From Synechococcus sp. CB0101 (GTDB lineage Bacteria; Cyanobacteriota; Cyanobacteriia; PCC-6307; Cyanobiaceae), in assembly GCF_000179235.2 (NCBI RefSeq), contig NZ_CP039373.1, positions 2,576,554 to 2,640,553 on the forward strand: a DNA stretch of 64,000 bases, given 5' to 3'. Position 1 is the stretch's first letter. The number at the start of each line of letters is the position of its first letter. Made by a program: the position numbers and the translations under genes. Under the pieces are notes generated by a model. That model did no database searches. It was not told where the DNA came from and saw nothing but the letters and a program-made list of their open reading frames with translations. Shown here in pieces: positions 3,238 to 44,024 of the stretch.

Positions 3238-4004
3238 TCAGTGATTCGCCAGGGCAAACAGCGTGCCCCCTTCCACCACTAGCCGGGTAATGCCCTGCGC
3301 CACCAAATAGGAGGAACGGCGTTCCAGCACCCCCGCATCCGGCACCTTGATCACCCGCTGGGTGCGGCCGCACTGGCGCTTGGCCTGGCGAGGATTCGTG
3401 AACAGCATCAAGGCTTGACGGTCCTGCTCCTCTTCGGGAAGGGAGCCCAACTCGGGGAACTCCGCCAGGGGCCGGGGCTGAAGCTCCACGGTTTTGTCCA
3501 CCAGCATGTAAACGCTGGCGGGAAGCGCTCCAGGAATCAGAGGCTGGGCCTCCAGCCGCACAGCTGGATCGGCCACAACAGCAACGGGCGCCGGGTCGTC
3601 GGCATCGTCGCTGTCGTCATCAGAACCGCTTTCGCCATCGTCGAGGCCGTCATCGCCGAAGTCATCGGCGTCATCGATCGCCAGGGTCTTCAGGTCGTCG
3701 TCGTTGCTGACCTCTTGGGTTGAGGCCACTGGCTGTGGAGGGGGCTCAGACACCGCGATGGGTTCCTCCGATGCCTCCGCAATCGGGATAGCTGCCTCCA
3801 CCTCGGCAACAGGAGCGGCCGATTTCCCCTCGACTGCCGCTTGATAGCCTCCATCTCCTTCGGATCCAGGGCTGCCTTCAGCACCCGGCTCACCGTGTTG
3901 GGGCTGCAGCCGTAGGCGGCCGCTAAAGCTTGGGCCGTTTCACCCTGGCGGTAGCGAACCACCAGCTCCTCTTTCTGGCTGTCGTTAAGCCGTGGAGCGG
4001 GCAT
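3238..4004 (-). pseudogene. HTH (Hin/transposase-like) DNA-binding protein, needs a -1 frameshift
   Basis: Two overlapping frames make one protein. The first (4004 to about 3822) encodes MPAPRLNDSQKEELVVRYRQ and the helix-turn-helix AAAYGCSPNTVSRVLKAAL, like Hin/IS helix-turn-helix domains. The second (about 3840 to 3238) encodes an Ala/Pro linker, a very acidic Asp/Ser stretch, and a globular C-terminus (PASVYMLVDKTVEL ... RQCGRTQRVIKVPD). From memory of the family, picocyanobacteria carry this as one uninterrupted gene of the same architecture. Joining the frames requires a -1 shift between 3842 and 3822. This could be a real one-base loss (for example a G missing near 3840), an assembly error, or programmed slippage. 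Function unknown, probably DNA binding. Confidence 0.7.
3822..3828 (-). other. Candidate -1 slippery heptamer GGGAAAT
   Basis: In the upstream frame the codons read AGG GGA AAT, which gives the X-XXY-YYZ heptamer G-GGA-AAT inside the region where the two frames of the HTH gene overlap. A -1 slip here joins the HTH half exactly to the C-terminal half. No convincing downstream pseudoknot was found by eye, so a plain indel remains the simpler explanation. Confidence 0.35.
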
Positions 4005-4087
4005 CTAGCCTGAATGCGCAGCACACCACCATAGAAGCCACTGGCCGCTGCGTCGCCAGGGCTCAACTGCCACAATGCCCAGCGTCA

Positions 4088-4161
4088 GCTCCCTTAGCTC
4101 AGCTGGATAGAGCAGCTGCCTTCTAAGCAGCCGGTCGATGGTTCGAATCCATCAGGGGGCG
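4088..4161 (+). tRNA. tRNA-Arg (anticodon TCT)
   Basis: A complete cloverleaf can be drawn. The acceptor is GCTCCCT / AGGGGGC with one G-T pair. The D arm is AGCTCAGCTGGATAGAGC. The anticodon arm is GCTGC-CTTCTAA-GCAGC with TCT at 4122-4124. The T arm contains GGTTCGAATCC. CCA is not encoded. The 3' half reappears in degenerate form at 7769-7812, which makes this tRNA a likely integration site or duplication boundary. Confidence 0.96.
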
Positions 4162-4207
4162 TCTAGAAAAACCAAGCTGGCATCGCAGATTGGCCGTTCA
4201 GTGCCGC

Positions 4208-4245
4208 TGACGTGGACCCTGGTGATCGGCCCAGGGTCCACGTCA
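4208..4245 (+). repeat. Perfect 15-bp inverted repeat (hairpin) downstream of tRNA-Arg
   Basis: The arms TGACGTGGACCCTGG (4208-4222) and CCAGGGTCCACGTCA (4231-4245) are perfect complements around an 8-base loop. No T-run follows, so it is not a standard terminator. It sits in the ~130-base stretch between tRNA-Arg and the first repeat/peptide unit, where no gene is seen. Confidence 0.8.
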
Positions 4246-4291
4246 AGGCTATGGACAACCAGCTGGACTCAGGAGAGGTTTGACCTCACCA

Positions 4292-4391
4292 GAAACTCCC
4301 TGAAAAGCCCCTCGCTCCTCATCTGGTAATGGGCAATCAGCCCTGCGATGGTGAATACATCGAGAGGAACACGCCTCCGACTTCACACCAA
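4292..4391 (+). repeat. Copy A of ~100-base upstream repeat
   Basis: This aligns without gaps to 4672-4771 (offset 380), with about 79 of 100 bases identical by hand count. Bases 4341-4367 are identical to 4721-4747 over 27 bases. It lies directly upstream of the first double-glycine peptide gene. Both copies contain a mini reading frame starting MVNTSRGT at the same place. In copy A it runs in frame into the peptide gene. It could be a shared 5' UTR or promoter, or the scar of a duplication. Confidence 0.85.
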
Positions 4392-4413
4392 ACGCTCAAC
4401 AAGGCCGACACCC

Positions 4414-4593
4414 ATGAGCACCAACACCACCGAACTCAAGACAAACATCACTGAACTCAAAAACAAAGAACTGGAAACTATCCAGGGCGGTCTTGGCTCC
4501 ACAATCCTGGGCTACAAAGCCGATTTTGACTCCGGGCTCTTAGGGGCTAGCAATCAAGCGCGATGTGAATATATTCAGGTAGTCTTCTCTTAG
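4414..4593 (+). CDS. Double-glycine-leader peptide 1 (bacteriocin/RiPP-like precursor)
   Basis: This is a 59-aa precursor. The ATG at 4414 gives a leader of 26 residues with ELKNKELETIQGG, matching the class II bacteriocin / C39-peptidase leader pattern (ELxxIxGG). The predicted core is 33 residues, starts LGSTILGYKADFDSG, and has one Cys. A longer in-frame start at 4348 inside the upstream repeat is possible but gives an atypical basic extension. No modification enzyme or exporter is nearby. A GG-cleaving ABC transporter elsewhere would be needed. AT content is higher than in the flanking genes. Function (antimicrobial, signalling or biofilm-type secreted peptide) is not determinable. Confidence 0.7.
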   Translation: MSTNTTELKTNITELKNKELETIQGGLGSTILGYKADFDSGLLGASNQARCEYIQVVFS

Positions 4594-4624
4594 TAGTCAC
4601 TCTGCGTAAGCGTCCGCAACAAGA

Positions 4625-4652
4625 AAAGCCCGGCTGTACAGCGGGCTTTTTT
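4625..4652 (+). terminator. Terminator after peptide 1
   Basis: A stem AAAGCCCG / CGGGCTTT with a GCTGTACAG loop is followed by a T-run. It lies about 30 bases after the peptide 1 stop and before repeat copy B, so peptide 2 probably has its own promoter. Confidence 0.85.
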
Positions 4653-4671
4653 CATGCATACTCTTTCACTC

Positions 4672-4771
4672 GAAACTCCCCGAAACCTCCCCGGCCCCTC
4701 ATCTGGCTTGTCGCAGTCAACCCTGCGATGGTGAATACATCGAGAGGGACACACCTCCGACTGCACCTCAC
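4672..4771 (+). repeat. Copy B of ~100-base upstream repeat
   Basis: This is the second copy of the element at 4292-4391, placed directly upstream of the second double-glycine peptide. Its mini frame MVNTSRGTHLRLHLTH ends at a TAA at 4776-4778, just before the AAGGAG ribosome-binding site (4777-4782) of peptide 2. The mini frame is therefore either a leader peptide or chance coding inside a regulatory repeat. Confidence 0.85.
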
Positions 4772-4790
4772 ACATTAAGGAGTTTCAATC

Positions 4791-5027
4791 ATGACTAACA
4801 AAGCAGACCGTGGTCTCAACCCTCAAACTACCGACCTCCCTCATCAACCAGTAGAGCCTTCGGATGAAGAGTTGGCTGTTGTGGCCGGTGGTTTTGACAA
4901 GGATGCATACTGGCAAGGGGTTGTTGGGCGGTTATCTGATGAAATTGAGCGCGAAACAGAAGCTAGATTAATTAAGGAAAGGATGTACAGGGGTGAGTAC
5001 GCCGCTGATTTTGATGGAGGTTCGTAA
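4791..5027 (+). CDS. Double-glycine-leader peptide 2
   Basis: This is a 78-aa precursor. The leader (about 34 residues) ends in PSDEELAVVAGG, close to the LSDEELEAVAGG motif of Nif11/NHLP-type and other double-glycine leaders. The predicted core of 44 residues begins FDKDAYWQGVVGRLSDEI. It is charged and likely helical, and contains no Cys, which argues against a lanthipeptide or disulfide product. The start is supported by AAGGAG 8 bases upstream. One 60-base line inside it is only 38% GC by hand count, well below the neighbourhood. No processing genes are adjacent. Confidence 0.72.
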   Translation: MTNKADRGLNPQTTDLPHQPVEPSDEELAVVAGGFDKDAYWQGVVGRLSDEIERETEARLIKERMYRGEYAADFDGGS

Positions 5028-5054
5028 GGTCTTGACCTTAGATCATATTCCCCC

Positions 5055-5083
5055 AGAGCCCCTGTGACCGCAGGGGCTTTCTA
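5055..5083 (+). terminator. Terminator after peptide 2
   Basis: AGCCCCTG / CAGGGGCT stem with a TGACCG loop, followed by TTTCT. It lies about 30 bases after the peptide 2 stop. Confidence 0.8.
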
Positions 5084-5213
5084 CCTCTTCAACAGCCCAC
5101 CAAGACCCCTCATTCAGTCGTCAATAACTGGCACCATTGCATCGAAATGAGCCTTGTTGGCGGGTGGCGTGACCCCCTTTGCTGGTCCAGTTCTTCTGAG
5201 AGCTGGTGGGTAG

Positions 5214-6013
5214 TCAGGCCGCTTTCCATTGCTGGATGACCTCCAGGGGCGTACGCCCCTGGAGCGCCGAATGCGGTCTGTAGGTGTTGTACTCGAGTCG
5301 GTGCTGCTCAGCCAACAGCCTGGCCTCCTGCACCGAGGTGAACATTTCGATGTTCAGGAATTCATCCCTGAACCGGCTGTTGAATGACTCCACAAATGGG
5401 TTCTCCCAGGGCGAGCCCGGTGGGATGTAAGCCGTGCTGCAGCCACTCGCAGTGCACCACTCCTGCAAGGCATTGGCGATGAACTCCGGGCCGTTATCCA
5501 TCCGCACATGCGTAGGCGGTGGATAGAGCTTGAGCAGCTCCTCGACGTGTCAATTACCTCAGCAGCCCTACAGCGTCTGCCGATCCGAATCGCCAGGCAG
5601 AGCCGGCTGTATTCGTCGATCACATTGAGGATCTTGAGGGTTCTCCCATCCATGGTCTGATCGAACTGGAAGTCGATCGCCCAGACGTGATGGGGGTATT
5701 CAGCACGCAGCAGCTCCCGTTTGTCTCCGGGAGGACGTGATCGCTTGCGCCGGCGCGGGAGGGGGCGCTGCAACCCCTCCTCCCGCCAGATCCGTTGCAC
5801 CCGTTTGTGATTGACGCTCCAGCCCTCGAGCCTGAGCCTCCGGTACACAAGCCGCCGGCCCCAGCGCACATGACGCCTGGCCAGCTCGCGGATACGGCGG
5901 CGCAGCTTCTGCTCCTCAATTGCGGTGACCGCTAACGGCCGGCGTTGGGTATTGCGGTTTTGGCCGGCCAACCGGCAAGCACGGCGCTGGGATACACGGA
6001 ATCGATCCTGCAG
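5214..6013 (-). pseudogene. IS3-type orfB transposase of element 1, split and frameshifted
   Basis: This is an rve/DDE integrase. An N-terminal HTH_21-like region (RELARRHVRWGRRLVYRRL) is followed by the catalytic core AIDFQFDQTMDGRTLKILNV with its first Asp, MDNGPEF with the second, and NSRFRDEFLNIE in the region of the catalytic Glu. One base is missing near 5545-5550: the frame changes between RCRAAEVID and EELLKLYPPP. The gene's start region is separated from it by element 2. Removing that insertion and one AACA joins 7249 to 6013 and restores AVCVLQDRFRVSQRRAC, matching the same stretch in element 2. Confidence 0.85.
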
Positions 6014-6062
6014 AACATGACGTGACCCCCTTCATTGGTCCAGGCGCAATGAGAGTGGGTGG

Positions 6063-6892
6063 TTATGCAGCAGCTGGTTGAGCTGCCTCCAGGGGCGTAC
6101 GCCCCTGGAGGGCTGAATGCGGCCTCAAGGTGTTGTACTCCCAGCGCCAGCGATCAGCCAAGGTTTGGGCCTCGCTCACGGTGGTGAACAGCTCGGTGTT
6201 CAGTAACTCATCCCTGAACCGGCTGTTGAACGACTCGGCAAACCCGTTCTGCCACGGTGATCCTGGTTCGATGTAGGCCGTGGTGGTGCCGCTGTTCTCG
6301 CTCCAGCGCTTGAGGGCGTGGGCGATGAATTCGGGCCCGTTGTCGCTGCGGATGAACGCTGGGGCTGGGTAGAGGCTGGTGAGCTCCTCCAGCACCGCCA
6401 CGACGTCTCTGGACTTGCAGCGCCTGCCCACCCGGATGGCCAGGCAGAGACGGCTGTGCTCGTCGATCACGTTGAGGAACTTGAGCCGCCGGCCATCGGC
6501 CGTGGCGTCGAATTGGAAGTCCATCGCCCAGACCTGGTGCGGGTGCTCAGCCTGGTGACGTCGCACCGAGCCGTCAGCCGGGCGTGCCCTCTTCTGCTTG
6601 CGGGGGTGGGCCGCTGCAGGTTCTCCTCGCGCCAGAGCCGGTGCACCCGCTTGTGGTTCACCGTCCAGCCTTCCCGCCGCAACAGGCGGTGGGCCATGCG
6701 CCGGCCCCAGCGGATGTGCTCAGCTGCGATTTCGCGGAGACGATGCCTCAGCTTGGCCTCCTCAAGATCGGCGACCTTGCCGACATGGCGCTGGCTGCTG
6801 CGGTGCTGGCCCACCAATCGGCAGACCCTCCGCTGGGATGCCCGGTAACGCTCCTGCAGGACTGTGACGGCCCGCCGGCGACGCTCCGGGCT
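6063..6892 (-). pseudogene. IS3-type orfB transposase of element 2, one-base frameshift
   Basis: The upstream half (SPERRRRAVTVLQERYRAS ... REENLQRPTP) and the downstream half (RRHQAEHPHQVWAMDFQFD ... LEAAQPAAA) are in different frames. The break is near 6595, where a run of C appears one base short; adding one C would read RKQKRARPADGSV and restore a full DDE integrase. The catalytic motifs MDFQFD, SDNGPEF and SFNSRFRDELLNTE are intact. In IS3 elements orfB is normally made as an OrfAB fusion by -1 slippage. The frame here lies -1 to orfA, as expected. Confidence 0.85.
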
Positions 6893-31582: not shown

Positions 31583-33511
31583 ATGGCTTCGCCTGGATCC
31601 AGCTCAGCCCCCCTCTCCGCTGCGCTGGTGCTGGGCAAGACCCCCAGCCTCAAGGAGCCCCACCTGCTGGGCGGTGTTCTCTATTGGCTGGAGCAGCGCC
31701 CCCATGAGCGCGGGCGCACCACCTTGATGGCCCGCAGCGGCCCAACCGCCGCCGCCGTGGAGCTCACGCCAGGCGACTGGAATCTGCGCTGCCGCGTGCA
31801 TGAATACGGCGGCGGTGCCTGCGCGATCGGTCGCCGGGCCACTGGCGACGCGGTGGCCGTGTTTGTGCACGACAGCGATCGCTGCCTGTGGCTGTTACCT
31901 CTCGACGCTCCTGGCAGCACGCCGCGGCGCCTCACCACCCCCAGCGACAACGGCCGCTTCCCGGCTGCCCTCGGCGGCGGGGTGATCGATCCCCGTCACG
32001 ACCGCTGGATCGGCGTGATGGAAGCCGATGGACGCGACACCCTGGTGGCCGTAGCGCTCACGGGGGGCGCCCCTCAACCGCTGCACGCACCAGCCGATTT
32101 CTGCGGCTACCCCTCTCTGAGCCCCGCCGGCAACCAGCTGGCCTGGGTGGAGTGGCAGCAGCCCTGCATGCCCTGGGAGCGCAGCCAGGTGTGGCTGGCC
32201 CCAGTCGATCCCGATGGCAGCCTGGCTTCCCCTCGGCCCGTGGCCGGCTCCGCCCCAGGCGATGCGGAAGCATGCTCGGTGTTTCAACCGCTCTGGGCCG
32301 GCGATCAGCTGGTGGTGAGCAACGACCGCAGCGGCTTCTGGAACCTGGAGTGCTGGAGGCAAGCTGCCCAGGCCAGCGCCAGCGCCGCACCCAAGTGGGA
32401 GCCGCTGCTGCCGATGGAGGCGGACTACGCCATGCCCCAATGGGTGTTCGGCATGAGCACCCTGGCCTGGGACGGAGAACAGCTGCTGGCGCTGGCCTGC
32501 CGCCAGGGCAGCTGGGAGCTGGGTCAGGTGCTGATGCCCAAGCAGCCCGGCAGCGCCGGCCAATGGCAGGTGCTGCCCCAACCGTTCACCGATCTGGCCG
32601 AGCTTTGTGCGGAGCAAGGCCAACTGGCCTGCGTGGCCAGCAGCGCCCGCGAACCCTCCGGCCTGCTGGAGCTGGAGCTGAGCAGCGGCCGCTGGCGCCA
32701 TCAGAGCGCCGCACCGTGCCCACTCAAGCCTGAGGCCATCAGCCAGCCGGAGGCGTTGTGGTTCAGCGGCCACGGCGGCCAGCCCACCCATGCCTGGTAC
32801 TACCCGCCAGCCGGTGGCGGCCACCCGGAAGCGCCCCTGCTGGTGAAAGGCCACAGCGGACCCACGAGCATGGCGCGCACGGGACTGAGCCTGGGCATCC
32901 AGTTCTGGACATCCCGCGGCTGGGGCGTGGTGGATGTGAACTACGGCGGCTCCACCGGCTTTGGCCGCGCCTACCGCGAGCGCCTCAATCGCCAGTGGGG
33001 TGTGGTGGACGTGGCCGACTGCGCTGCCGCAGCGCAAGCGCTGGTGGCCCGCGGGCTGGCCAGCGCCGAGCGCATTGCGATCGAAGGGGGCAGCGCGGGT
33101 GGCTTCACCGCCCTGGCGGCCCTCTGTTTCACCGACACCTTCCGGGCCGGCGCCAGTCGTTACGGCGTGGCCGACCTCACCGCCCTGGCGAGCGACACCC
33201 ACCGGTTTGAAGCTCGCTACCTCGATGGCCTGGTGGGGCCCTGGCCCGTAGCGAAGGCCACCTATGAGGAGCGCTCGCCGCTGCAACATGCCGATCGCAT
33301 CCGCTGTCCGGTGATCTTTTTCCAGGGTCTTGAGGATGTGGTGGTGCCGCCGGAGCAGACCGAACGGATGGCAGCGGAGCTGAAGGCCAATGGCATCCCG
33401 GTGGAGGTGCACCTCTTCCCGGAGGAGGGACACGGCTTCCGCAATGGCGCCACCCAGATCCAGGTACTGGAAGCCACCGAAGCCTTCTTCCGCCGCCACT
33501 TCCAGCTGTGA
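31583..33511 (+). CDS. S9 family prolyl oligopeptidase/acylaminoacyl peptidase
   Basis: This is a 642-aa protein. An N-terminal beta-propeller (about residues 1-380) is followed by an alpha/beta hydrolase. The nucleophile lies in EGGSAGGFTALAAL, the Asp in FQGLEDVVVPPEQTERM and the His in PEEGHGFRNG. Cytosolic, no signal peptide. Ten bases separate it from the downstream symporter pair, so peptide breakdown and amino-acid uptake may be linked. The ATG at 31583 was chosen; a TTG at 31577 is in frame. Confidence 0.9.
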   Translation: MASPGSSSAPLSAALVLGKTPSLKEPHLLGGVLYWLEQRPHERGRTTLMARSGPTAAAVELTPGDWNLRCRVHEYGGGACAIGRRATGDAVAVFVHDSDRCLWLLPLDAPGSTPRRLTTPSDNGRFPAALGGGVIDPRHDRWIGVMEADGRDTLVAVALTGGAPQPLHAPADFCGYPSLSPAGNQLAWVEWQQPCMPWERSQVWLAPVDPDGSLASPRPVAGSAPGDAEACSVFQPLWAGDQLVVSNDRSGFWNLECWRQAAQASASAAPKWEPLLPMEADYAMPQWVFGMSTLAWDGEQLLALACRQGSWELGQVLMPKQPGSAGQWQVLPQPFTDLAELCAEQGQLACVASSAREPSGLLELELSSGRWRHQSAAPCPLKPEAISQPEALWFSGHGGQPTHAWYYPPAGGGHPEAPLLVKGHSGPTSMARTGLSLGIQFWTSRGWGVVDVNYGGSTGFGRAYRERLNRQWGVVDVADCAAAAQALVARGLASAERIAIEGGSAGGFTALAALCFTDTFRAGASRYGVADLTALASDTHRFEARYLDGLVGPWPVAKATYEERSPLQHADRIRCPVIFFQGLEDVVVPPEQTERMAAELKANGIPVEVHLFPEEGHGFRNGATQIQVLEATEAFFRRHFQL

Positions 33512-33521
33512 GGGGGCTGCC

Positions 33522-34922
33522 ATGAACGACCTTCTGCCCGCGCTCTGGACTCCCGAGAGGCTGCTCGGACTGGCTTGGCTGGCCCTGGCCGGTTCCGTTC
33601 TCACCCTGATCCTGGCCGCTGGGCGCCGCATCGGCCGGCGGCTGAACCTGCGGCTCTGGGGTGTTCCAGAAGCCTTGGTGGCGGGGCTGATCGGCCTGCT
33701 GGTGGCACCCAGCGGAGCACTGCCCCTGTTGCCGCCTCACCTGATGGAGCTCTGGGGCGAGCTACCGCTCGTGCTGCTCACCCTGGTGTTTGGGTCGCTG
33801 ATGCTGGGCAAACCCTTGCCTCAACTGGGCGGGCTCTGGCGCCCCGTGGGGGGGCAGGTGTCGCTGGCACTCGTTCTCGCCTTTGGCCAGTACGTGGTGG
33901 GAGGCCTGGCGGTACTGCTGGTATTGCAGCCATGGCTGGGGGTGAGCCCGGTGATGGCCTGCCTGATCGAAGTGGCCTACGAAGGCGGTCATGGCTCCGC
34001 AGCCGCGATGGGTCCGAGCTATGCGGCCCTCGGCTTTCCAGGCGGCCAGGATCTGGGCCTAGCCATGGCCACCGTGGGGCTACTCAGCTCCACCCTGGTG
34101 GGGGGCGTGGTGGTGGTGATCGGTCGTCAACGGGGCTGGCTCCTGGCCCAGGGGACCCCCACACCCAGCACTGCCGCAGTGCAGCCCACCGCTGCATCCG
34201 CAGCACCCGAGCGCCCCGCCTGGGCGGACTGGGCCGTGAACCTTGCCCTGGCGGGCTGCGCTGTGCTGATCGGCGTGGTGCTGCTGCAGCTGCTGCGCCT
34301 GGGCACCGATGCCATCGGCGGTGGTGTGGCCGAGGTGGGGCGCGCCCTACCGGTGTTCCCACTGGCGATCATCGGCTCGCTGTTGATGCGCTGGCTGCTG
34401 GAGCGCACTGGCCGCAGCCACTGGGCGTCGGCTCCGATCCAGAGCGAAATCGGCACCCTCTCCGCGGATCTGCTGATCACCTCGGCCACCGCCTGCCTGA
34501 ACCTGGCCCTGCTGGCCGCGGATTGGCTACCGCTCACGGTGCTGGCCGTGGCGGGGCTCACCTGGAACTTGGCGGTCACCCTGCTGCTGGCGCCCCGGGT
34601 GCTGCCGGCCGATTGGTTCGAGCGGGCTGTGCTGGAGTTCGGCCAGGCCACAGGCGTGGCCGCTTCGGGCCTGCTGCTGCTGCGCATGGCCGATCCCGAC
34701 GACCACAGTGCGGCGCTGCCGGCCTTTTCGCTCAAGCAATTGCTGCTGCAGCCCTTTTTGGCGGGCGGGGTGGTCACGGTGGTGGCCCCATTGGCCGTGG
34801 CCAGCTGGGGGCTGCCCACCTGGACCGCCTTCTGCCTGGGTCTGGTGCTGTTCGCCGGAGGCGCGGGCCTGCTGCTGGCCCAGGCCGGACGCAACACTGA
34901 ACCATCTGCCGCCCACCCATGA
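33522..34922 (+). CDS. GltS-like sodium/glutamate symporter, copy A
   Basis: This is a roughly 466-aa membrane protein with two inverted structural halves. The N-half re-entrant motif EVAYEGGHGSAAAMGPSY and the C-half LEFGQATGVAASGLLLLRMA match the ESS/GltS family (Na+-coupled glutamate import). It shares its stop with the start of copy B (ATGA overlap). It begins AGGGGGCTGCC upstream of ATG 33522. Confidence 0.88.
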   Translation: MNDLLPALWTPERLLGLAWLALAGSVLTLILAAGRRIGRRLNLRLWGVPEALVAGLIGLLVAPSGALPLLPPHLMELWGELPLVLLTLVFGSLMLGKPLPQLGGLWRPVGGQVSLALVLAFGQYVVGGLAVLLVLQPWLGVSPVMACLIEVAYEGGHGSAAAMGPSYAALGFPGGQDLGLAMATVGLLSSTLVGGVVVVIGRQRGWLLAQGTPTPSTAAVQPTAASAAPERPAWADWAVNLALAGCAVLIGVVLLQLLRLGTDAIGGGVAEVGRALPVFPLAIIGSLLMRWLLERTGRSHWASAPIQSEIGTLSADLLITSATACLNLALLAADWLPLTVLAVAGLTWNLAVTLLLAPRVLPADWFERAVLEFGQATGVAASGLLLLRMADPDDHSAALPAFSLKQLLLQPFLAGGVVTVVAPLAVASWGLPTWTAFCLGLVLFAGGAGLLLAQAGRNTEPSAAHP

Positions 34923-36322
34923 AGCTGTTTGACGTGCTGGTGGCCTTTGCGGGCCTGAGCCTGCTGCTGCTGGCCGGGATCACCCTGCGCCGCAAGCTGC
35001 GCTGGCTGCGGCAGCTCGGCATCCCCGAAGCGCTGGTGGCCGGATTGCTGGGGCTGCTGATCGGTCCCTTTGGCCCGCTGCGGATCTTCCCGGAGCAGGT
35101 CTACACGGTGTGGGCCCAAACCCCGGGCGTGCTGATCTCACTGGTGTTCGCCACCTTGTTTCTGGGCCAACGCCTGCCCAGCCCGCGGCAGTTGTGGCAG
35201 CGGGCAGCCGGCCAAACCGCCTTCGGCATGACGCTCGGATTTGGTCAATACCTGGTGGGTGCCCTACTGGTGTGGCTCGTGCTGCAACCGCTGTTCGGAA
35301 CCAACCCATTGATGGCCTGCCTGATTGAGGTGGGTTTCGAAGGCGGCCATGGCACCGCCGCCGGCATGGGCGACACCTTTGCCGATCTGGGCCTGGCCTC
35401 CGGCGAAGCCCTCGGTCTGGCCATGGCCACGGTGGGCGTGGTGAGTGCTGTGCTGATCGGCAGCACCTTGGTGGTCATCGGCCGCGGCCGCTCCTGGCTC
35501 AGCGCCGAGGAGAGCCAGCCCTCGGCAGGCTCTCTGCTGCAACGGGCCGCCCACAGCGATCCGATGTCAGCGGAAGCCAAGCTGGCGCAAGAAGAGGCAG
35601 CCGGCCTGAGCGATCCAACGGCATCTGCCTCCGTCACCATCGATGGGCTCACGGTGAACCTGGCCCTGGCGGGCGCCGCTGTTGGCCTGGGCGTCCTGCT
35701 CAAGGAGGGCATCACCCGCCTCGGAGGCGTGCTCGGTGGGGCCGCCACCGCCGACCTGCTGAATGCCATCCCCGTCTTTCCCCTCGCGATGTTGGGAGGT
35801 CTGATGGTGCAGCTGCTGTTGCAGTGGCGCCGACACAACGATCTGGCCTCGCCGGTGGTGCAAGCCAGCGTGGGCTCCTTGGCGATGGACGTGTTGATCA
35901 CGGCGGCCATGGCCAGCCTCAACCTGCCGATGCTGGAGGACAACTGGCTGCCCTTCCTGCTGCTGGCGCTGGCCGGTCTGGCCTGGAACGTGGCGGCCTT
36001 CCTGCTGCTGGCGCGCCGCTTCTTTCGCGATCACTGGTTCGAGCGAGCGATCGCGGATTTCGGCCAGGGCACCGGCGTCACCGCCACGGGCCTGCTACTG
36101 CTGCGCATGGCGGATCCGATGGGCCGCAGCCGGGCCATGGAGAGCTTCTCGTTCAAACAGTTGGTGTTTGAACCGTTCCTCGGCGGCGGCCTGATCACCG
36201 CCCTTGCGCCGATCGCGCTGGCCAGCTGGGGCCTACCCCGCTTCAACGCCGTGGCGTTGCTGCTCACCGTTGCATCGATCGCCTTTGGCCTGTGGATCGG
36301 GCGCCGCGCCCAGCAGACCTAA
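34919..36322 (+). CDS. GltS-like sodium/glutamate symporter, copy B
   Basis: This is a 467-aa paralogue of copy A, co-linear over its whole length. It has EVGFEGGHGTAAGMGDTF in the N-half and DFGQGTGVTATGLLLLRMA in the C-half. The middle loop (about residues 195-235) is longer and charged. Coupled translation with a full-length homologue suggests that the two form a heterodimer or serve related substrates; this is inference. Confidence 0.88.
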   Translation: MKLFDVLVAFAGLSLLLLAGITLRRKLRWLRQLGIPEALVAGLLGLLIGPFGPLRIFPEQVYTVWAQTPGVLISLVFATLFLGQRLPSPRQLWQRAAGQTAFGMTLGFGQYLVGALLVWLVLQPLFGTNPLMACLIEVGFEGGHGTAAGMGDTFADLGLASGEALGLAMATVGVVSAVLIGSTLVVIGRGRSWLSAEESQPSAGSLLQRAAHSDPMSAEAKLAQEEAAGLSDPTASASVTIDGLTVNLALAGAAVGLGVLLKEGITRLGGVLGGAATADLLNAIPVFPLAMLGGLMVQLLLQWRRHNDLASPVVQASVGSLAMDVLITAAMASLNLPMLEDNWLPFLLLALAGLAWNVAAFLLLARRFFRDHWFERAIADFGQGTGVTATGLLLLRMADPMGRSRAMESFSFKQLVFEPFLGGGLITALAPIALASWGLPRFNAVALLLTVASIAFGLWIGRRAQQT

Positions 36323-36325
36323 CGC

Positions 36326-36997
36326 TTAGTGGCCGTAGAGCAGGGTGCGGAACTGATGCCGCACCTGCTCCATCTGCTCGGCACTGAGCAGGGGCGGTTC
36401 GCCGATGGTTCGAGCCTGCAGGTAGATGCGAGCGAGGGTTTCCACCTCCACCGCCAGAGCCAGGGCCCGATCGAGGTTGGGACCCACCACCACCTGGCCG
36501 TGCTGGGCCATCAGGCAGGCGAGACGCCCCTGCAATGCTTCCACCACCCCATCGGAGAGCTCCTGGGTGCCGAAGGTGGCGTAGGGAGCGCAGCGAATGT
36601 CGTGGCCGCCGGCCACCGCAATCATGTAGTGAAAGGGTGGAATGCCGCGACCGTGACAAGCCAGGGCCGTGGCGTGGATCGAGTGGCAGTGCAGCACGGC
36701 CTGCACCTCCGGCCGGTTGGCGAGCACATCCGCATGCAGCCGCCATTCCGAAGAGGGGCGCCGCTGGGGCCGGCCCGGCTCGGCGGGGTGCAGCGGTTTC
36801 CCCGCCAGATCCAGCGCTACCAGATCGCTGGGCTGCATCAGCTCATAGGGCAATGAGCTGGGGGTGATCAGCATTCCGCCGGGAATGCGCACTGAAAGAT
36901 TGCCGGAGGTGCCCTGGTTGATGCCGCTCGCCTGCATGCGGCGCGCCACAGTCACCAGCTGCTCGCGCAGGTCCTGTTCGCTCATGGAGGTCAGCAT
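36326..36997 (-). CDS. Class II aldolase/adducin family protein (MtnB- or DrdA/Ald2-like)
   Basis: This is a 223-aa protein. The N-half has GINQGTSGNLSVRIPGGML, then HCHSIHATALACHG with zinc-binding His, the Glu-bearing SSEWRLHADV and a later AQHGQVVVGPNL His. This is a zinc aldolase/dehydratase. It overlaps the stop of mtnA, so it probably uses a sugar phosphate made by MtnA: either dehydration in methionine salvage (MtnB) or aldol cleavage in the 5-deoxyribose/DHAP shunt. No mtnC/D or kinase is visible here. Starts at 36997 or 36984. Confidence 0.8.
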   Translation of the reverse strand: MLTSMSEQDLREQLVTVARRMQASGINQGTSGNLSVRIPGGMLITPSSLPYELMQPSDLVALDLAGKPLHPAEPGRPQRRPSSEWRLHADVLANRPEVQAVLHCHSIHATALACHGRGIPPFHYMIAVAGGHDIRCAPYATFGTQELSDGVVEALQGRLACLMAQHGQVVVGPNLDRALALAVEVETLARIYLQARTIGEPPLLSAEQMEQVRHQFRTLLYGH

Positions 36998-38103
36998 CAG
37001 GCGTAGAGGTTGCGCAAGCCGGCTTCGCTGGCGGGCGCCACACCGCGTTCGGTGATCAGCGCCGTCACCAGCCGGGCCGGGGTCACGTCGAAGGCGGGAT
37101 TGAAGCCTTCGCTGCCATCAGGGGTGAGTTGCACGGTGGCCAACTGGCCGGCAGCCGGGCCGTCGTCAACGCGACCCTGGATGTGGGTCACCTCCCGGGC
37201 ACTGCGCGCTTCGATCGGAATTTCAGCCACGCCGTCGTCGATGGTCCAGTCGATGGTGGAGGCGGGCAGGGCCACATAGAAGGGCACGCCGTTGTCGTGG
37301 GCGGCGAGGGCCTTCAGATAGGTGCCGATCTTGTTGCACACATCACCGCGGCGGGTGGTGCGATCGGTGCCCACGATCACCGCATCCACCTGGCCGTGCT
37401 GCATCAGGTGGCCGCCGGCGTTATCCACAATCACGGTGTGGGGCACACCCTCGCGGCCCAGCTCATAGGCGGTGAGCGAAGCCCCCTGGTTGCGAGGGCG
37501 GGTTTCATCCACCCACACATGGATGTTGAGTCCAGCGCGGTGGGCCTTGTAGATCGGCGCCAAGGCCGTGCCCCAATCCACCGTGGCCAGCCAGCCGGCG
37601 TTGCAGTGGGTCAACACATTGAAGGGCTGCCCCTGGCGCTCGGCGGGCCGAGCCGCTGCCAGCTGCTGGAAGATCGCCAGGCCGTGCTCGCCGATGGCCT
37701 CGCACATGGCCACGTCTTCATCGGCGATGGCCGCCGCTTCCGCCTTCGCCACCTCAGCCCGCTCAGCCGGGGGCAGCGGCGTCACGCGATCGCGCACCCG
37801 CTCCAGGGCCCAGCGCAGGTTCACCGCCGTGGGGCGAGTGGCATTGAGCTGCTCGAACGCAGCAGCGAGTGCGGCATCACTCGAATCCGCCTGCAGCGCC
37901 AACATCAGCCCATAGGCGCCGGTCACGCCGATCAGGGGCGCGCCGCGCACCACCATTGTGCGAATCGCCTCAGCCGCCTCGTCGCAACTGCGCAGCGTGC
38001 GCGTGGTGAAGTGATGCGGCAGCTGGATCTGATCGATCACCCCGATCGAGCGGCCATCGGGCTCCAACCAGATGGTGCGCCAGGCCTTGCCGTCGATCTT
38101 CAT
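36997..38103 (-). CDS. mtnA: S-methyl-5-thioribose-1-phosphate isomerase
   Basis: MtnA isomerises methylthioribose-1-phosphate, and also 5-deoxyribose-1-phosphate, to the ribulose form. This 368-aa protein has [35 protein letters not shown] with the catalytic Cys, [16 protein letters not shown], and [20 protein letters not shown] with the catalytic Asp. It was started at 38103 ([13 protein letters not shown]). It is head of the two-gene unit with the aldolase and divergent from the phosphoesterase gene. Confidence 0.95.
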
Positions 38104-38167: not shown

Positions 38168-39187
38168 ATGCCCCTGCGTCGCCGCCAGCTGCTCCAGCTC
38201 GCCGCCGCCGGCGCAGGCAGCGGTGCCTGGTGGCTGCTCGGGCAACAGCAGCAGCCGGCCACGGCGGCCCCGAGCAGCACCCCTGATCTGCGCATCGGCC
38301 TGATCAGCGACCTCAACAGCAGCTACGGCTCCACCACCTACATCCCCCAGGTGAGCCAGGGCCTCCAGCAGCTCCTCAGCCGCAAACCAGCCCTGGTGGT
38401 CTGCGCCGGCGACATGGTGGCCGGTCAGAAACGGGGCCTGAGCGCCGGTCAGCTGGATGCCATGTGGGAGAGCTTTGCTCGCACCGTGCTGGCACCGATC
38501 CGCCAGGCCGGCCTGCCCTTCCTGCCCGCCGTGGGCAACCACGACGGCTCCCCCGGTTTTGAAGCCGATCGGGCGGCCGTGCGCCGCTTTTGGACGCCGC
38601 GGCGCCAGGCCCTTGGCCTGCGCTTCATGGATGCGGGCGATTTCCCCTTCCACTACAGCGCCCTGCAGAACGATGTGTTCTGGCTGGTGTGGGATGCCAG
38701 CTCCGGGCGCATCCCCGCCAGCCAGCTCAGCTGGGCGCGTCAACAGCTAGCCAGCCCTGAAGCGCGCCAGGCACGGCTACGGCTGGTGGTGGGGCACCTG
38801 CCCCTCGTGGGCGTGAGCCAGGGGCGCGATCGCGCCGGTGAAACCCTCGATCAGGCTGCCGCCGTGCAAAGCCTGCTGGAGCAGGGCCGCGTGCAGGCCT
38901 ACATCAGCGGCCACCAGCACGCCTGGTTCCCCGCACGCCGCGGCCAGCTGGATCTGATTCATCTGGGGGCGATGGGCAGCGGCCCCAGACGGCTCCTCCA
39001 GGGAGCCATCCCTCCCCAGCAGACCTACACGACCCTCGACATCAACTGGCAGGACAACTCCCTCCTGGAGACCACCTATGCGGTGGCCAGCGGCCAACCC
39101 GTGGCCTGGAGCCGCCTACCCGCCACCTTGATGGGCCGCGCCGGCGGCCTCAACCGCAACGTTCAGGCGCGATCAATCCGCCGGTAG
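38168..39187 (+). CDS. Exported metallophosphoesterase (calcineurin-like)
   Basis: This is a 339-aa protein. An N-terminal [20 protein letters not shown] looks like a Tat-type signal. It is followed by the dinuclear metal phosphoesterase motifs [35 protein letters not shown] and SGHQHAW. It is likely a periplasmic phosphodiesterase or phosphatase; substrate unknown. It overlaps the convergent DUF1543 gene by 25 bases. Confidence 0.85.
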
Positions 39188-39714
39188 CCGAACCAATCCG
39201 GCACCTGGGGCTGGCTCAACCCCTCGGGATGGGGATCGAGCTGCAGATGCCAGCGCTCACCACCGAGCAACTCCAGCTGCTCGATCGCCAGGCAGTCGTC
39301 CACGGCGCAGAGATCATCCTTGTGCTGCTGCAGCGCGCCTGACAGCCACTGCCGCTTTGCCGCAGCCTTGGCCGCCTGAGGCGAGCGCGCCACCACCAGC
39401 CCGAAGTGGTGCAACTCCGCCAGGGAATCAGGGCGGTAGGCGCCCAGGTTCACAAACCAGAGCCGCTCGGGCCGGGGCGCGGCCGGCTCGCGCACGAGGC
39501 TCACCGCCCAACCATCGATCGCCCGCACCGCCATGTAGCTGTCCAGGTGCAGGCCCTCACGCCTCCCGAACCACTGCCGCCGCAGCTCGGGGAGGGTGTC
39601 ATCGATGGAAGCCCCCACCACAAAGCGCACATCGTGCAGCTCGATATGACTGGTGGCGGTGCGCCCCCCCAGCACCACCAAAAACAACTGCGCGTGGTCA
39701 GCCAAGAGCTCCAT
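39163..39714 (-). CDS. DUF1543 domain protein
   Basis: This is a 183-aa soluble protein. LFLVVLGGRTATSHIELHDV and VVGASIDDTLPELRRQWFG followed by LHLDSYMAVRAIDGW match the DUF1543 family. A second half (VARSPQAAKAAAKRQW ... IEQLELLGGERWHLQLDP) repeats the pattern. Function unknown. Starts at 39714 or 39723 fit. It is divergent from the amine oxidase. Confidence 0.82.
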   Translation of the reverse strand: MELLADHAQLFLVVLGGRTATSHIELHDVRFVVGASIDDTLPELRRQWFGRREGLHLDSYMAVRAIDGWAVSLVREPAAPRPERLWFVNLGAYRPDSLAELHHFGLVVARSPQAAKAAAKRQWLSGALQQHKDDLCAVDDCLAIEQLELLGGERWHLQLDPHPEGLSQPQVPDWFGYRRIDRA

Positions 39715-39750
39715 GGTCAGCATTCCAACAGCTGTGAGAACGCTGGCGCG

Positions 39751-41169
39751 ATGAACGATGCCGTCGATGTGGTGGTGGTGGGTGCCGGACTCTCCGGGTT
39801 GATCGCCGCTCGCCGCTTGATCGAACAAGGACAGCGGGTGCGCGTGCTGGAGGCGCGGCCACGGGTGGGGGGCCGCATGGTGAGCCAGACCCTCAGCGAC
39901 GGCAGCGTGGTGGATCTGGGAGGCCAGTGGGGAGGCAACACGCACCACCGCTTCGCGGCGCTACTGCAGGAACTCGGGCTGAATCGCTACCCGAGTTACT
40001 ACGCAGGCGACGGCATCTTCTGTTGGCAAAGCAAGCGCATCAAGGCCCCACTGGCGGAGCGTTTTGAGGACAGCCTGGTGTTCTTTGAGCCTGGGGCCCT
40101 CGACCTGGATGCGAAGGAGCTGGAGGCAACCCGCGCACTGCAGCGGGCCTTCACCGCCCTCGTCGCCCAGATCAACCCACGCCAGCCCTGGCTCACCCCC
40201 GATGCCGAACGGCTGGATCGGCTCACCGTGAGGGCATGGGCTGCCCAGCAGACCAACCTGCCCCTGGCCCATCTCCCCCTCGACTGGCTCTGCCGAGTGG
40301 GGGGATCGGGCGGCTTTGAACCCTGGGAAGCCTCAATCCTGCACCTCGCCTGGACCCAGGCGGTGGCACCGCAGACCGAGACTCCGGAAGCCTGGCTGGT
40401 GCAGGGAGGGGCAGGAGCGGTGAGCCTGCAGCTCGCGGCGGACCTTCGGGCCCGCAGCCCGGAGGCCCTCATGCTGGAAGCCCCGGTGCTGGCCATTCAG
40501 CAAAACGAGGCCATGGCAACCGTGATGGCCGAGGGGCTCGAACCGCTGCAGGCCCGTGCGGTGATCGTGGCGGTGCCACCACCGCAGCGGCAAGCGATCC
40601 GCTTTGAACCGCCCTTGCCCCCGGCACATCAAGCCCTGCTGCAACGCACAGCCATGGGCGGCATGACCAAAATCCTCACGCGCTACAACAAGCCCTTCTG
40701 GCGTGAGCAGGGACTGAACGGTCTGGGGACCGGTGAACAGCCCTGGCTGGATCTCACCGCCGACAGCGGCCCCCCTGGCGAGCAACCGGCCGTGCTGGCC
40801 AGCTTTGTGGCAGGCGAGCGGGCCATCACCATGGCCGCACTGCCGGAGGCGGAACGGCGAGCGCTGATCCTCAAGGATCTGGTGAGCTATTGGGGCCCCG
40901 ACGCCGCAAGCCCCCTCGATCTGGTGGAACAAGCCTGGAATGGCGAAGCCTGGACCGGCGGTGCCTTCACCAGCTTTCCTGCACCAGGCAGCTGGACCAG
41001 CCATGCCCGCCTGGCTGCCGGCACCGAGGGTGGCCCGGCTCCCGCCAGCCATGGGCGGGTGTGCTGGGCCGGTACCGAGGTCTCCCCGCGCTGGCCTGGC
41101 TATTTCGAAGGCGCCATCGAGGCCGGGGAGCTGGCCGCGTCCACTGTTGCCCGACACCTGAGCCCATGA
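39751..41169 (+). CDS. FAD-dependent amine oxidase (MAO-like)
   Basis: This is a 472-aa flavoprotein. The N-terminal dinucleotide fold DVVVVGAGLSGLIAARRLIE is followed by LEARPRVGGRMVSQTL and GGQWGG. The C-terminal FAD motif is VCWAGTEVSPRWPGYFEGAI. This is the monoamine oxidase/flavin amine oxidoreductase layout. It overlaps by 4 bases the first of two methyltransferase genes, so the three probably modify the same small molecule. The substrate is unknown. Start ATG 39751 (MNDAVDVVVVG). Confidence 0.88.
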   Translation: MNDAVDVVVVGAGLSGLIAARRLIEQGQRVRVLEARPRVGGRMVSQTLSDGSVVDLGGQWGGNTHHRFAALLQELGLNRYPSYYAGDGIFCWQSKRIKAPLAERFEDSLVFFEPGALDLDAKELEATRALQRAFTALVAQINPRQPWLTPDAERLDRLTVRAWAAQQTNLPLAHLPLDWLCRVGGSGGFEPWEASILHLAWTQAVAPQTETPEAWLVQGGAGAVSLQLAADLRARSPEALMLEAPVLAIQQNEAMATVMAEGLEPLQARAVIVAVPPPQRQAIRFEPPLPPAHQALLQRTAMGGMTKILTRYNKPFWREQGLNGLGTGEQPWLDLTADSGPPGEQPAVLASFVAGERAITMAALPEAERRALILKDLVSYWGPDAASPLDLVEQAWNGEAWTGGAFTSFPAPGSWTSHARLAAGTEGGPAPASHGRVCWAGTEVSPRWPGYFEGAIEAGELAASTVARHLSP

Positions 41170-41999
41170 AGGATCGGCCCTACATCCATGGAACGAGTCG
41201 CCGCGAACAAGAGCGTCTGATTGATCAAGCAGAGCTGCTCTCCGAGCTACTGGCAGCGAACCTGGATTACCAGGCTGGCGACCAGATCCTCGAGATCGGC
41301 TGCGGTGTTGGTGCAGTGCTGGGGCAGATCGGCAAGAGCCACCCCGATGCCCAACTGCACGGGATCGACATCAGCCCCGACCAGATCGAGGCCGCGCGGC
41401 TGCACCTCAGCGGGCTGGGCCTGGATCAGGTGGAGCTTGCGGTGGGGGATGGCGCTGCGCTGCCTTGGGCATGCGCCTCGATGGATCGTGTGCGGTTGGT
41501 GTGGGTGGTGGAGCACCTCCAGGAGCCAGTGGCGGTGCTGCGTGAAGCCCTGCGGGTGCTGCGGCCAGGGGGCACGATTCACATCACCGAAACCGATTAC
41601 TCCAGCCTGCGCGTTTCCCCGCCGGATCCCGCGATCGAGGCGATGCTCAGCGCCTTCGTTGCCCACTTCAACCGCCATGGCCATGCCCACGCCGGCCCGG
41701 CGCTGGGCCCCTGGCTGGAGCTGGCCGGCTTCGATCAGGTGCGCAACACCATGGTGGGGATCCACCACTGGTGTCCCAGTCGGCGCAGCCACGTTGAAGG
41801 GTTTTGCCGCTATCTGCTCGCCTTCATCGAGCCGGAGCACTCCGCCCTGGTCGCGGCGGCGCCCAACCCCTCCGCCACAGCCCTGATCCAAACTGGCCTG
41901 GAGCGGTTCGCGCGGCTGGGAGAGCAACCCGAAGGAGCGATCAGCATCAGCATCTACCAAGCCCAAGGGATGAAGCCCACCGACCAACCAGCAGGCTGA
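41166..41999 (+). CDS. SAM-dependent methyltransferase 1
   Basis: This is a 277-aa class I methyltransferase. The SAM-binding motif I is ILEIGCGVGAVLGQIG, the acidic loop is LHGIDISPDQIEAARL, and EALRVLRPGGTIHITETD is the post-core motif. The shape is that of small-molecule (UbiE/sarcosine-like) methylases, but the acceptor cannot be told. Translationally coupled to the amine oxidase (ATGA); 5 bases precede methyltransferase 2. Confidence 0.85.
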   Translation: MKDRPYIHGTSRREQERLIDQAELLSELLAANLDYQAGDQILEIGCGVGAVLGQIGKSHPDAQLHGIDISPDQIEAARLHLSGLGLDQVELAVGDGAALPWACASMDRVRLVWVVEHLQEPVAVLREALRVLRPGGTIHITETDYSSLRVSPPDPAIEAMLSAFVAHFNRHGHAHAGPALGPWLELAGFDQVRNTMVGIHHWCPSRRSHVEGFCRYLLAFIEPEHSALVAAAPNPSATALIQTGLERFARLGEQPEGAISISIYQAQGMKPTDQPAG

Positions 42000-42004
42000 G
42001 CAGC

Positions 42005-42718
42005 ATGGATCTCTTCGCGCAGCAGTGGGCTTCCTATCGGGCTGTGGTGGAACACAACCTGATGGAGCATCAAGCGGTGGCGGCCACCACCGCCTCCACC
42101 CTGGAGAACTGGCTGGTCGCGCGTCCAGCTGATGCCCAACCGCCGCGGATGGTCGACCTCGGCTGCGGCGATCTGGCCCTGCTGGCACCCGTGCTGAAAC
42201 GCTTGCCTTTGGGCTCCTACACAGGCCTCGATCTCACAGCGGAGGTGCTGCCGCTGGCTCAGCAAGCACTCGGCACTGTGGCCTATCCCTGCCGCTGGCT
42301 GGAAGGAGATCTACTCCGTTGGGCGCGCGATGCAGCAGATGAGCAGGAGGAGCCGGTCGACATTTTTCACTCCGCCTTCGCCATCCACCACCTCAGCGAC
42401 CAGGAGAAACAGACACTGCTCCAGTGCTTGCGCACCAGGATCGCGCCGGGAGGACTGTTCATTTGGGTGGATGTGTTCCGAGAAGCCGGCGAAGCCCGGG
42501 ATGCCTACGTGAAGCGCTACCTGCAGCGCATCGCCAGCAGCTGGCCCCAGCTCTCAGCCCAGCAGCAAGAGCACGTGAGCAGCCACCTCGCTAGCTACGA
42601 CAACCCTGCGGATCGCGGCACGATTGAAACGATAGCCTCAGCTGCGGGATGGCAGTGGCGCTGGGCCTGGAACGGCGCGCACCGAGCCGAGGCGATGGCC
42701 GTGCTGACGCCGGCCTGA
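42005..42718 (+). CDS. SAM-dependent methyltransferase 2
   Basis: This is a 237-aa class I methyltransferase with motif I VDLGCGDLALLAPVL, TGLDLTAEVLPLAQQAL, and RIAPGGLFIWVDVFREAGEA. It is not closely similar to methyltransferase 1. It is third gene of the amine-oxidase unit and converges on sufS with a 16-base gap. Confidence 0.85.
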   Translation: MDLFAQQWASYRAVVEHNLMEHQAVAATTASTLENWLVARPADAQPPRMVDLGCGDLALLAPVLKRLPLGSYTGLDLTAEVLPLAQQALGTVAYPCRWLEGDLLRWARDAADEQEEPVDIFHSAFAIHHLSDQEKQTLLQCLRTRIAPGGLFIWVDVFREAGEARDAYVKRYLQRIASSWPQLSAQQQEHVSSHLASYDNPADRGTIETIASAAGWQWRWAWNGAHRAEAMAVLTPA

Positions 42719-42734: not shown

Positions 42735-44024
42735 TCAGCTGTGCTCCCGCAGGAAGCTGATCGAGCCCTGCAGCTCATCGGCAAAGCGATCGATCTCCTC
42801 AGTGGTGGTGGTGAAACTGAGGCTGGCGCGGGCGGAGCCGCTGATGCCGTAGTGGCGATGCAGCGGCTGAGTGCAGTGGTGGCCGCTGCGAATGCAGATG
42901 CCGGCTGAATCGAGCAGAGCAGCGATGTCGTTGGCGTGAACGCCCTCCACGTGGAAGGCGGCAAGAGCAGCACGATCCGGCTGTTGCTCTGGGGTGGGGC
43001 CGAGGATGCGCAGGCCATCGATGGCCTGCAGGCGCTCGAACAGATGGCGGGTGAGCTGCTGCTCCCAGGCGTGGATGCGATCCAGGCCGATGGCCTGCAG
43101 ATAATCGAGCGCTGCGCCCATGCCCACCGCCTCGCCGATGGCGGGCGTGCCGGCTTCGAACTTGTGGGGCAGCCCGGCCCAGGTGCTGTGGTCGAGGTAC
43201 ACGTCCTGAATCATTTCGCCGCCACCCAGGAAGGGGGGCATCGCCTCCAGCAGCGCCTCACGCCCCCAGAGGAAACCCATGCCCGTGGGGCCACAGAGCT
43301 TGTGGGAGCTGCCCACCAAGAAATCAGCACCGAGCTGCTTCACGTTCACCGGCAGGTGGGGCAGGCTCTGGCAGGCGTCCACCAGCACCAGGGCGCCGGC
43401 GGCATGGGCCAAGGCCGCCACCTCGGCGATCGGGTTGAGGCAGCCGAGCGTATTGCTCACCTGCACCAGGCTCACCAGGCGGGTGCGCTCGTTGAGCTTG
43501 CTGCGTAGATCGTTTAGATCCAGCTCACCGGTGTCGGTGAGGCCGGCATGGCGCAGCACGCAGCCGGTGCGATCGGCCAACAGCTGCCAGGGCACCAGGT
43601 TGCTGTGGTGCTCCATCACCGTAAGCAGCACCTCATCGCCAGGGCGCAGGTTCGCCTCACCCCAGCTGCGGGCCACGAGGTTGATCGCCTCGCTGGCGTT
43701 GCGGGTGAACACGATCTCGTTGGGGTTGGCAGCCCCCACGAACGCAGCCGCCTTGGCGCGCGCCCCTTCAAAGCCTTCGGTGGCACGGGCGCTCAGTTGG
43801 TGGGCGCCGCGGTGCACGTTGGCGTTGTCATGGTCGTAGTAGTGCTGCAGCGCCTCGAGCACCTGGCGCGGTTTCTGGCTGGTGGCTGCGTGATCGAGGT
43901 AGATCAGCGGCTGGCCAAGGCAGGCGGTCTGGGCCAGCAGAGGGAAATCAGGACGCGTTTGCGCCGCCAGATCCCCGGCCTGGGCAGCTACCGCGGATTG
44001 GGGTGCCGAGAGGGTGCTGGTCAT
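42735..44024 (-). CDS. sufS: Cysteine desulfurase SufS
   Basis: This is a PLP enzyme releasing sulfur from cysteine for Fe-S cluster assembly. The PLP Lys lies in VGSSHKLCGPTGMGF, the catalytic Cys in CIRSGHHCTQPLH, and the EHHSNLVPW cofactor motif is present. It was started at 44024 (MTSTLSAPQ), where ATGA overlaps the sufD stop. Last gene of the suf unit. Confidence 0.96.
   Translation of the reverse strand: MTSTLSAPQSAVAAQAGDLAAQTRPDFPLLAQTACLGQPLIYLDHAATSQKPRQVLEALQHYYDHDNANVHRGAHQLSARATEGFEGARAKAAAFVGAANPNEIVFTRNASEAINLVARSWGEANLRPGDEVLLTVMEHHSNLVPWQLLADRTGCVLRHAGLTDTGELDLNDLRSKLNERTRLVSLVQVSNTLGCLNPIAEVAALAHAAGALVLVDACQSLPHLPVNVKQLGADFLVGSSHKLCGPTGMGFLWGREALLEAMPPFLGGGEMIQDVYLDHSTWAGLPHKFEAGTPAIGEAVGMGAALDYLQAIGLDRIHAWEQQLTRHLFERLQAIDGLRILGPTPEQQPDRAALAAFHVEGVHANDIAALLDSAGICIRSGHHCTQPLHRHYGISGSARASLSFTTTTEEIDRFADELQGSISFLREHS

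Follow-up and report, generated by a model that had tools for sequence, protein, structure and literature searches.

An amine oxidase and two methyltransferases of Synechococcus sp. CB0101 occupy a modular gene slot between DUF1543 and sufS

Results

Gene structure of the locus

The stretch of DNA analysed here, referred to as the window, comprises 64,000 nucleotides of Synechococcus sp. CB0101 (contig NZ_CP039373.1, positions 2,576,554 to 2,640,553), whose genome is a single contig of 2,789,616 bases. It contains three adjacent genes on the plus strand, which we call OX, M1 and M2. OX (39751..41169; ATG at 39751, stop at 41169) encodes a flavin adenine dinucleotide (FAD) amine oxidase of 472 amino acids (aa), which belongs to the monoamine/putrescine-oxidase branch. 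M1 (41166..41999, 277 aa; PF08241/PF13649) and M2 (42005..42718, 237 aa; PF08242) encode class I S-adenosylmethionine (SAM) methyltransferases, the former of the 3MGG family and the latter with His-His-Asp residues of the CysG/BelI type. The start codon of M1 overlaps the stop codon of OX by 4 bases in an ATGA that can be read directly (41166..41169, plus strand), and M1 and M2 are separated by 5 bases. An earlier note on this DNA had described a tight operon with these spacings, and the coordinates confirm it. The same 4-base overlap between OX and M1 occurs in the genomes G047 (locus L093) and G127 (L095), where OX, M1 and M2 are 63-69% identical to those of the window; because of this recurrence the packing of the three genes goes beyond chance. 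The enzyme families are known and their combination is new. In agreement with the earlier note, which did not recognise the cluster, no previous description was found in the literature searched by title and abstract, with subscription papers mostly outside that scope.

On the left, the three genes are bordered by a divergent DUF1543 gene (39163..39723, minus strand; PF07566, 134.7 bits; start codon uncertain) and on the right by a suf operon, whose gene for a sufS-like cysteine desulfurase (42735..44024, minus strand) is convergent with M2, the two ends lying 16 bases apart. The sufS-like label was given by eye from the sequence and the suf context, without a family scan. We refer to the interval between the two border genes as the slot. 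If DUF1543 starts at 39723, its start and that of OX are 27 bases apart (39724-39750) and there is therefore little space for two promoters. The term DUF1543 was found in no paper of the literature searched.

Contents of the slot in related genomes

The distribution was analysed in 151 genomes of the family, including that of the window. M2 was detected with at least 150 bits in 41 genomes and M1 with at least 100 bits in six, and OX of the close group was present in 18 (17 above 470 bits, plus G144, in which it is split in two pieces). Orthologues of an aldo/keto reductase (AKR; E <= 1e-60) were found in 22 genomes, PotD (E <= 1e-30) in 10 and DUF1543 (E <= 1e-20) in 98. For the census of the slot, 63 of these 98 genomes were fetched, 38 with sufS on the same piece of sequence and 25 without; the 35 DUF1543 genomes outside the census all have at most 52% DUF1543 identity. 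The contents were determined by tblastn with named queries and a simple codon-score gene caller, which misses or merges some genes; the M2 gene of G005 (L107) was missed by the caller and detected only by direct search. The census is biased in that 15 of the 38 slots were fetched via DUF1543 alone and the rest, except the window, by a match to OX, M2 or AKR.

In the 38 genomes in which the slot can be read from DUF1543 to the adjoining sufS, the window's own included, it is empty in 15 and occupied in 23. The empty slots have at most 59 bases between the matches, and in two of them (G032 and G074) OX lies on the far side of DUF1543. Among the 15 slots fetched via DUF1543 alone, 13 are empty and two contain AKR. 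Each of the 23 contains one or more of OX, M1, AKR, M2 and a PotABCD-like transporter (M2 17, AKR 9, OX 6, M1 4 and Pot 1). The set OX-M1-M2 is found in the window genome, OX-AKR-M2 in G150, OX-M1-AKR-M2 in G047 and G127, AKR-M2 in G118 and G137, PotABCD-M2 in G082 and a damaged M1-M2 pair in G064. OX stands alone in G106 and G045, AKR is present without OX or M2 in G062, G068, G030 and G018, and M2 without OX, M1 or AKR in nine genomes (G081, G087, G140, G115, G092, G009, G075, G101 and G143); in G140 and G143, a close OX is located at another place in the genome. All seven slots with two or more of OX, M1, AKR and M2 show the order OX-M1-AKR-M2, directed toward suf. This order is kept in G144, G107, L202 and L206 as well; the contig of G144 (OX-M1-AKR-M2) stops short of DUF1543. 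In G064, which belongs to the same genus as the window's host, no close OX was found and M1 and M2 are both internally deleted, which indicates that the set is dispensable in this genome.

The OX amine oxidase

OX contains a full-length Amino_oxidase domain (PF01593, 227 bits, residues 14-466) with an FAD Rossmann motif (NAD_binding_8 at 9-75), in agreement with the FAD amine oxidase named in the earlier note. Among the best 60 of 110 matches to solved sequences, monoamine oxidase 8p84 ranked first (203 bits), with putrescine oxidases at 174-182 bits (2yg7 182) and cyclohexylamine oxidase at 173. L-amino-acid oxidase (62 bits) and spermine oxidase (55 bits) were not preferred within the same 60 matches, and a CrtI-type carotenoid desaturase was ruled out (NCBIfam 33.1 bits against a cutoff of 238.1, residues 7-60 only). 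We place OX in the branch of the monoamine and putrescine oxidases and consider this assignment sound.

Lys307 is invariant in 22 of 22 aligned relatives. Position 406 is Phe in 21 and Tyr in one of them, and position 451 is Tyr in 17 and Phe in five; we presume, from MAO-B, that these residues act as active-site lysine and aromatic cage. In mammalian monoamine oxidase, FAD is held covalently through a Cys. OX has Ala405 at this position (22/22), where putrescine oxidase 2yg3 carries Ala as well, so OX does not share the covalent FAD attachment of the mammalian type. In the phylogenetic tree, the slot copies of the window, G150, G047, G127, L202, G106 and G045 form one clade (100/98), which includes one G082 copy located elsewhere in that genome. 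As a separate observation, OX in L115 (G140) has as its neighbour a gene for a large membrane protein, judged by eye to be NapH/CcoG-like, and such a gene adjoins M2 in L135, L137, L141 and L142.

The M2 methyltransferase

M2 matches Methyltransf_12/25 in Pfam, and its predicted model is confident (pLDDT 92.6, pTM 0.90). Its nearest folds are tied at Z 21.0-22.5: 3dtn (22.5), CysG (21.5-22.0), CmoA (21.1-21.5), YecO (21.2) and BelI (21.0). Foldseek placed CysG and BelI on top, and a profile search ranked 3DTN first and CysG second. CysG and BelI act as carboxylate O-methyltransferases in the biosynthesis of cystargolide and belactosin and hold Ca2+ by His122-His123-Asp191 (PMC11408123). The residues H128, H129 and D199 of M2 align with this triad and are kept in all 40 sequences compared, namely 26 of the 41 strong family matches (alignment A3) and 14 of the 16 found outside the family; the comparison concerns aligned residues and not the geometry of a site or a bound metal. 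On account of these residues, M2 looks like a metal-dependent O-methyltransferase rather than an N-methyltransferase.

Arg12 of M2, which may correspond to CysG Arg22 at the methylated carboxylate, is present in 26 of 26 family sequences at matching spacing to Trp8, in a stretch outside the profile alignment; the 14 distant sequences carry Gln (11), Asp (2) or Ser (1) at this position. The residues of CysG at the second carboxylate of malate-type substrates, His167 and Arg187, are not kept in M2, which has Tyr172 and Leu195 (with His194 adjacent) instead, numbered through the His-His-Asp residues, with Tyr172 one column off in a second alignment. The substrate of M2 is therefore probably unlike that of CysG. 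With regard to the enzymes described in PMC11408123, M2 is alike in fold and in the three residues, but is only 20-23% identical and, unlike CysG and BelI, occurs in many cyanobacteria. In a sample of the phylum, 23 of 292 genomes contain M2 at E <= 1e-20. Sixteen of these lie outside the family, and no OX, M1, AKR or Pot gene was found near M2 at any of the 14 distant loci examined. At one distant locus (L197, G401, 3439-6254), a gene of the SufS cluster lies one gene from the M2 relative, and the suf neighbourhood might be old.

The M1 methyltransferase

M1 matches Methyltransf_11/25/31 in Pfam and was modelled with confidence (pLDDT 91.3). Both its profile and its predicted fold point to 3MGG, a methyltransferase of Methanosarcina mazei whose title gives no function, with a full-length profile match of 178 bits and a fold match at Z 30.2 (rmsd 1.8, 250 aligned residues; next fold Z 21.6) at 26-28% identity. 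As no function is stated for 3MGG, only general methyl transfer can be suggested for M1. The two methyltransferases differ in family, 3MGG being the top fold for M1 and 3DTN/CysG for M2 (Z 22.5/22.0), which agrees with the earlier note that had called them unrelated. In the M1 family, a Glu-His pair follows the equivalent strand in 15 of 15 sequences (matched by eye).

In the phylum sample, nine of the 292 genomes match M1 at E <= 1e-20, and six of these matches reach 170 bits or more. A scan of named genomes added a Synechococcaceae metagenome-assembled genome (MAG; L202, OX-M1-AKR-M2), REEB417 (L203) and a Vulcanococcus MAG (L206, M1-M2 with neither OX nor AKR). All eight distinct picocyanobacterial copies lie beside M2 (G000, G047, G127, G144, G107, G064, L202 and L206); OX is upstream in five, absent in two and hidden by a contig end in one. 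The closest relatives outside the family were found in a Verrucomicrobiales MAG (57% identity) and a Phycisphaerae MAG (55%, with one in-frame stop), and the pieces of these two MAGs around M1 contain no OX, M2, AKR or Pot. Further cyanobacterial relatives reach at most 42% identity. In the tree, the picocyanobacterial copies group together (91/85, below the starred level) within a clade that includes both MAGs (98/98), which suggests gene transfer among bacteria in either direction. The window's genome encodes a second M1-like methyltransferase (G000:C1:2769744-2770436), 30% identical to M1, with relatives in G009 and G064.

Pot genes and further neighbours

PotABCD-like operons adjoin OX in G143 and M2 in G082 and G005, i.e. 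in three of ten cases, for which rough arithmetic from gene number gives a chance expectation of about 0.01 cases. In G048, a distant OX relative (38%) lies three called genes from Pot.

Past DUF1543, the window continues with genes for a metallophosphoesterase, S-methyl-5-thioribose-1-phosphate isomerase (mtnA; 36997..38103, minus strand; TIGR00512, 418 bits, cutoff 279) and a class II aldolase, all outside the operon. The aldolase is of the fuculose-phosphate type and adjoins mtnA (window 36326-38103), a layout that we take to be that of the methylthioadenosine / 5'-deoxyadenosine salvage shunt. Two adjacent genes of the same cluster, encoding 466 and 467 aa and GltS-like by eye, follow at about 33000-36322 and are paired in G064, too.

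Discussion

We tentatively favour, at slightly less than an even chance, the view that OX-M1-M2 is the local version of a modular accessory operon, which is housed in a fixed slot between DUF1543 and suf in picocyanobacteria of about 2-4 Mb and serves the handling of amines, aldehydes and acids, possibly with a link to polyamines. The substrate of OX would be a small primary amine, perhaps a polyamine-like one, which the enzyme would deaminate oxidatively to give an aldehyde, NH3 and H2O2. In those relatives that have it, AKR could reduce aldehydes to alcohols. M2, with a divalent metal on His-His-Asp, may methylate a small molecule at an oxygen of a carboxylate or hydroxy acid, and M1 a second small molecule. 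The fullest set in the relatives is OX-M1-AKR-M2, directed toward suf. Since M2, OX and AKR are each retained in some genomes that lack the others, the four genes do not appear to form one obligatory pathway. OX resembles the bacterial putrescine, monoamine and cyclohexylamine oxidases of PF01593 in its full-length family, its top solved matches and the kept Lys. In a microbial putrescine-oxidase degradation pathway, the oxidase gene is reportedly clustered with further enzymes. The likeness lies in an oxidase grouped with other enzymes and, in the case of G143, also with a transporter of the polyamine type, whereas the present slot holds two methyltransferases and no aldehyde dehydrogenase was noticed in it.

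Several observations weigh against this modular reading. OX, M1 and M2 are each assigned to a family and not to a particular substrate. Glu324, presumably the residue of putrescine oxidase that binds the second amine (diamine sensor), aligns with Leu335 of OX (Leu in 21/22), an acid being present one residue off, at 334, in 21 of 22. Pot has neither OX nor M2 as a neighbour in seven of the ten genomes, PotD is far below the NCBIfam cutoffs, and the link was spotted post hoc; we therefore treat it as a hint. In the window genome, there is no match to PotD at E <= 1e-30 and none to AKR at E <= 1e-60. Some slots contain additional genes, named by eye: four unrelated ones in G062, one metallophosphoesterase gene each in G018 and G118, and single genes resembling an L,D-transpeptidase in G140 and a small lipoprotein in G087, besides a 180-aa open reading frame in G082. 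As for M2, the His-His pair is common, as 11 of 20 weakly matching control methyltransferases (hand-picked from more than 100 weak matches in the same family) carry it, and it was rejected as a mark of CysG-like enzymes on its own. None of the 20 controls has the Asp, with 18 unaligned at this column and two carrying Pro; because of this, the assignment rests on the Asp and is weakly controlled. Moreover, Asn variants of the CysG motif are still active, D191N having lost 56% of its activity and the two His variants being fully active but inactivated by EDTA (PMC11408123).

An ancestral OX-M1-AKR-M2 set could instead have formed one linear pathway, in which OX yields an aldehyde, AKR reduces it, and M1 and M2 add methyl caps, with steps lost elsewhere. 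The fixed, co-directional order wherever two or more of the genes are present is in line with such a pathway, as are the single clade of the slot OX copies and the invariable position of M1 beside M2. We nevertheless regard it as unlikely, because the most frequent arrangement among occupied slots is M2 without OX, M1 or AKR (9/23), with seven of these nine genomes lacking a close OX anywhere, and because OX alone, AKR without OX or M2, and M2 at 14 of 14 distant loci without any of the partners would mean that partial pathways persist with unexpected frequency. This independent assortment, together with the four unrelated genes beside AKR in G062 and the single extras in five other slots, might also be explained by a neutral insertion hot spot, i.e. 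a site that tolerates unrelated genes without a common function. A hot spot of this kind seems rather improbable to us, as all 23 occupied slots, most of them fetched by a match to OX, M2 or AKR, draw on a small common set of families with a single order and direction, the slots fetched by DUF1543 alone were either empty or held AKR, and the overlap of OX and M1 is preserved across two genera.

The earlier note had proposed that an amine or amino acid is N-methylated and oxidised step by step, the product being a betaine-like osmolyte or a modified amine. The monoamine oxidase type of OX would fit, and the profile matches of M1 include phosphoethanolamine N-methyltransferases (5wp5, 93 bits); Foldseek also returned the sarcosine/dimethylglycine methyltransferase 2o57 for M1, as a distant fold match (TMq 0.49). 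However, M1 scores far higher against its own 3MGG family, the residues of M2 fit a metal site of the O-methyltransferase type, and no model of the betaine route (GSMT/SDMT) was found in the 25 best of 62 NCBIfam matches of M1 or in the 10 listed for M2. Since the slot is modular in relatives and M2 looks like an O-methyltransferase, we consider a fixed route of this kind highly unlikely. The dispersal in relatives, which the note had named as speaking against its own proposal, is partial: some slots have M2 but no OX and others OX but no M2, and close OX copies are also found outside the slot, but M1 stays with M2 in picocyanobacteria. It is also conceivable, with a low probability, that M2 represents a family of metal-dependent His-His-Asp carboxylate O-methyltransferases which is widespread in cyanobacteria and lies outside beta-lactone biosynthesis. 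In the slot of estuarine and lake strains, M2 would then be supplemented with an oxidase, a reductase and another methyltransferase to make an undescribed, methyl-capped metabolite derived from polyamines.

Returning to the modular accessory operon that we favour, the comparison illustrates that the tidy operon of one genome can mislead. In its relatives, OX-M1-M2 gives way to a modular slot, the genes of which are also found apart.

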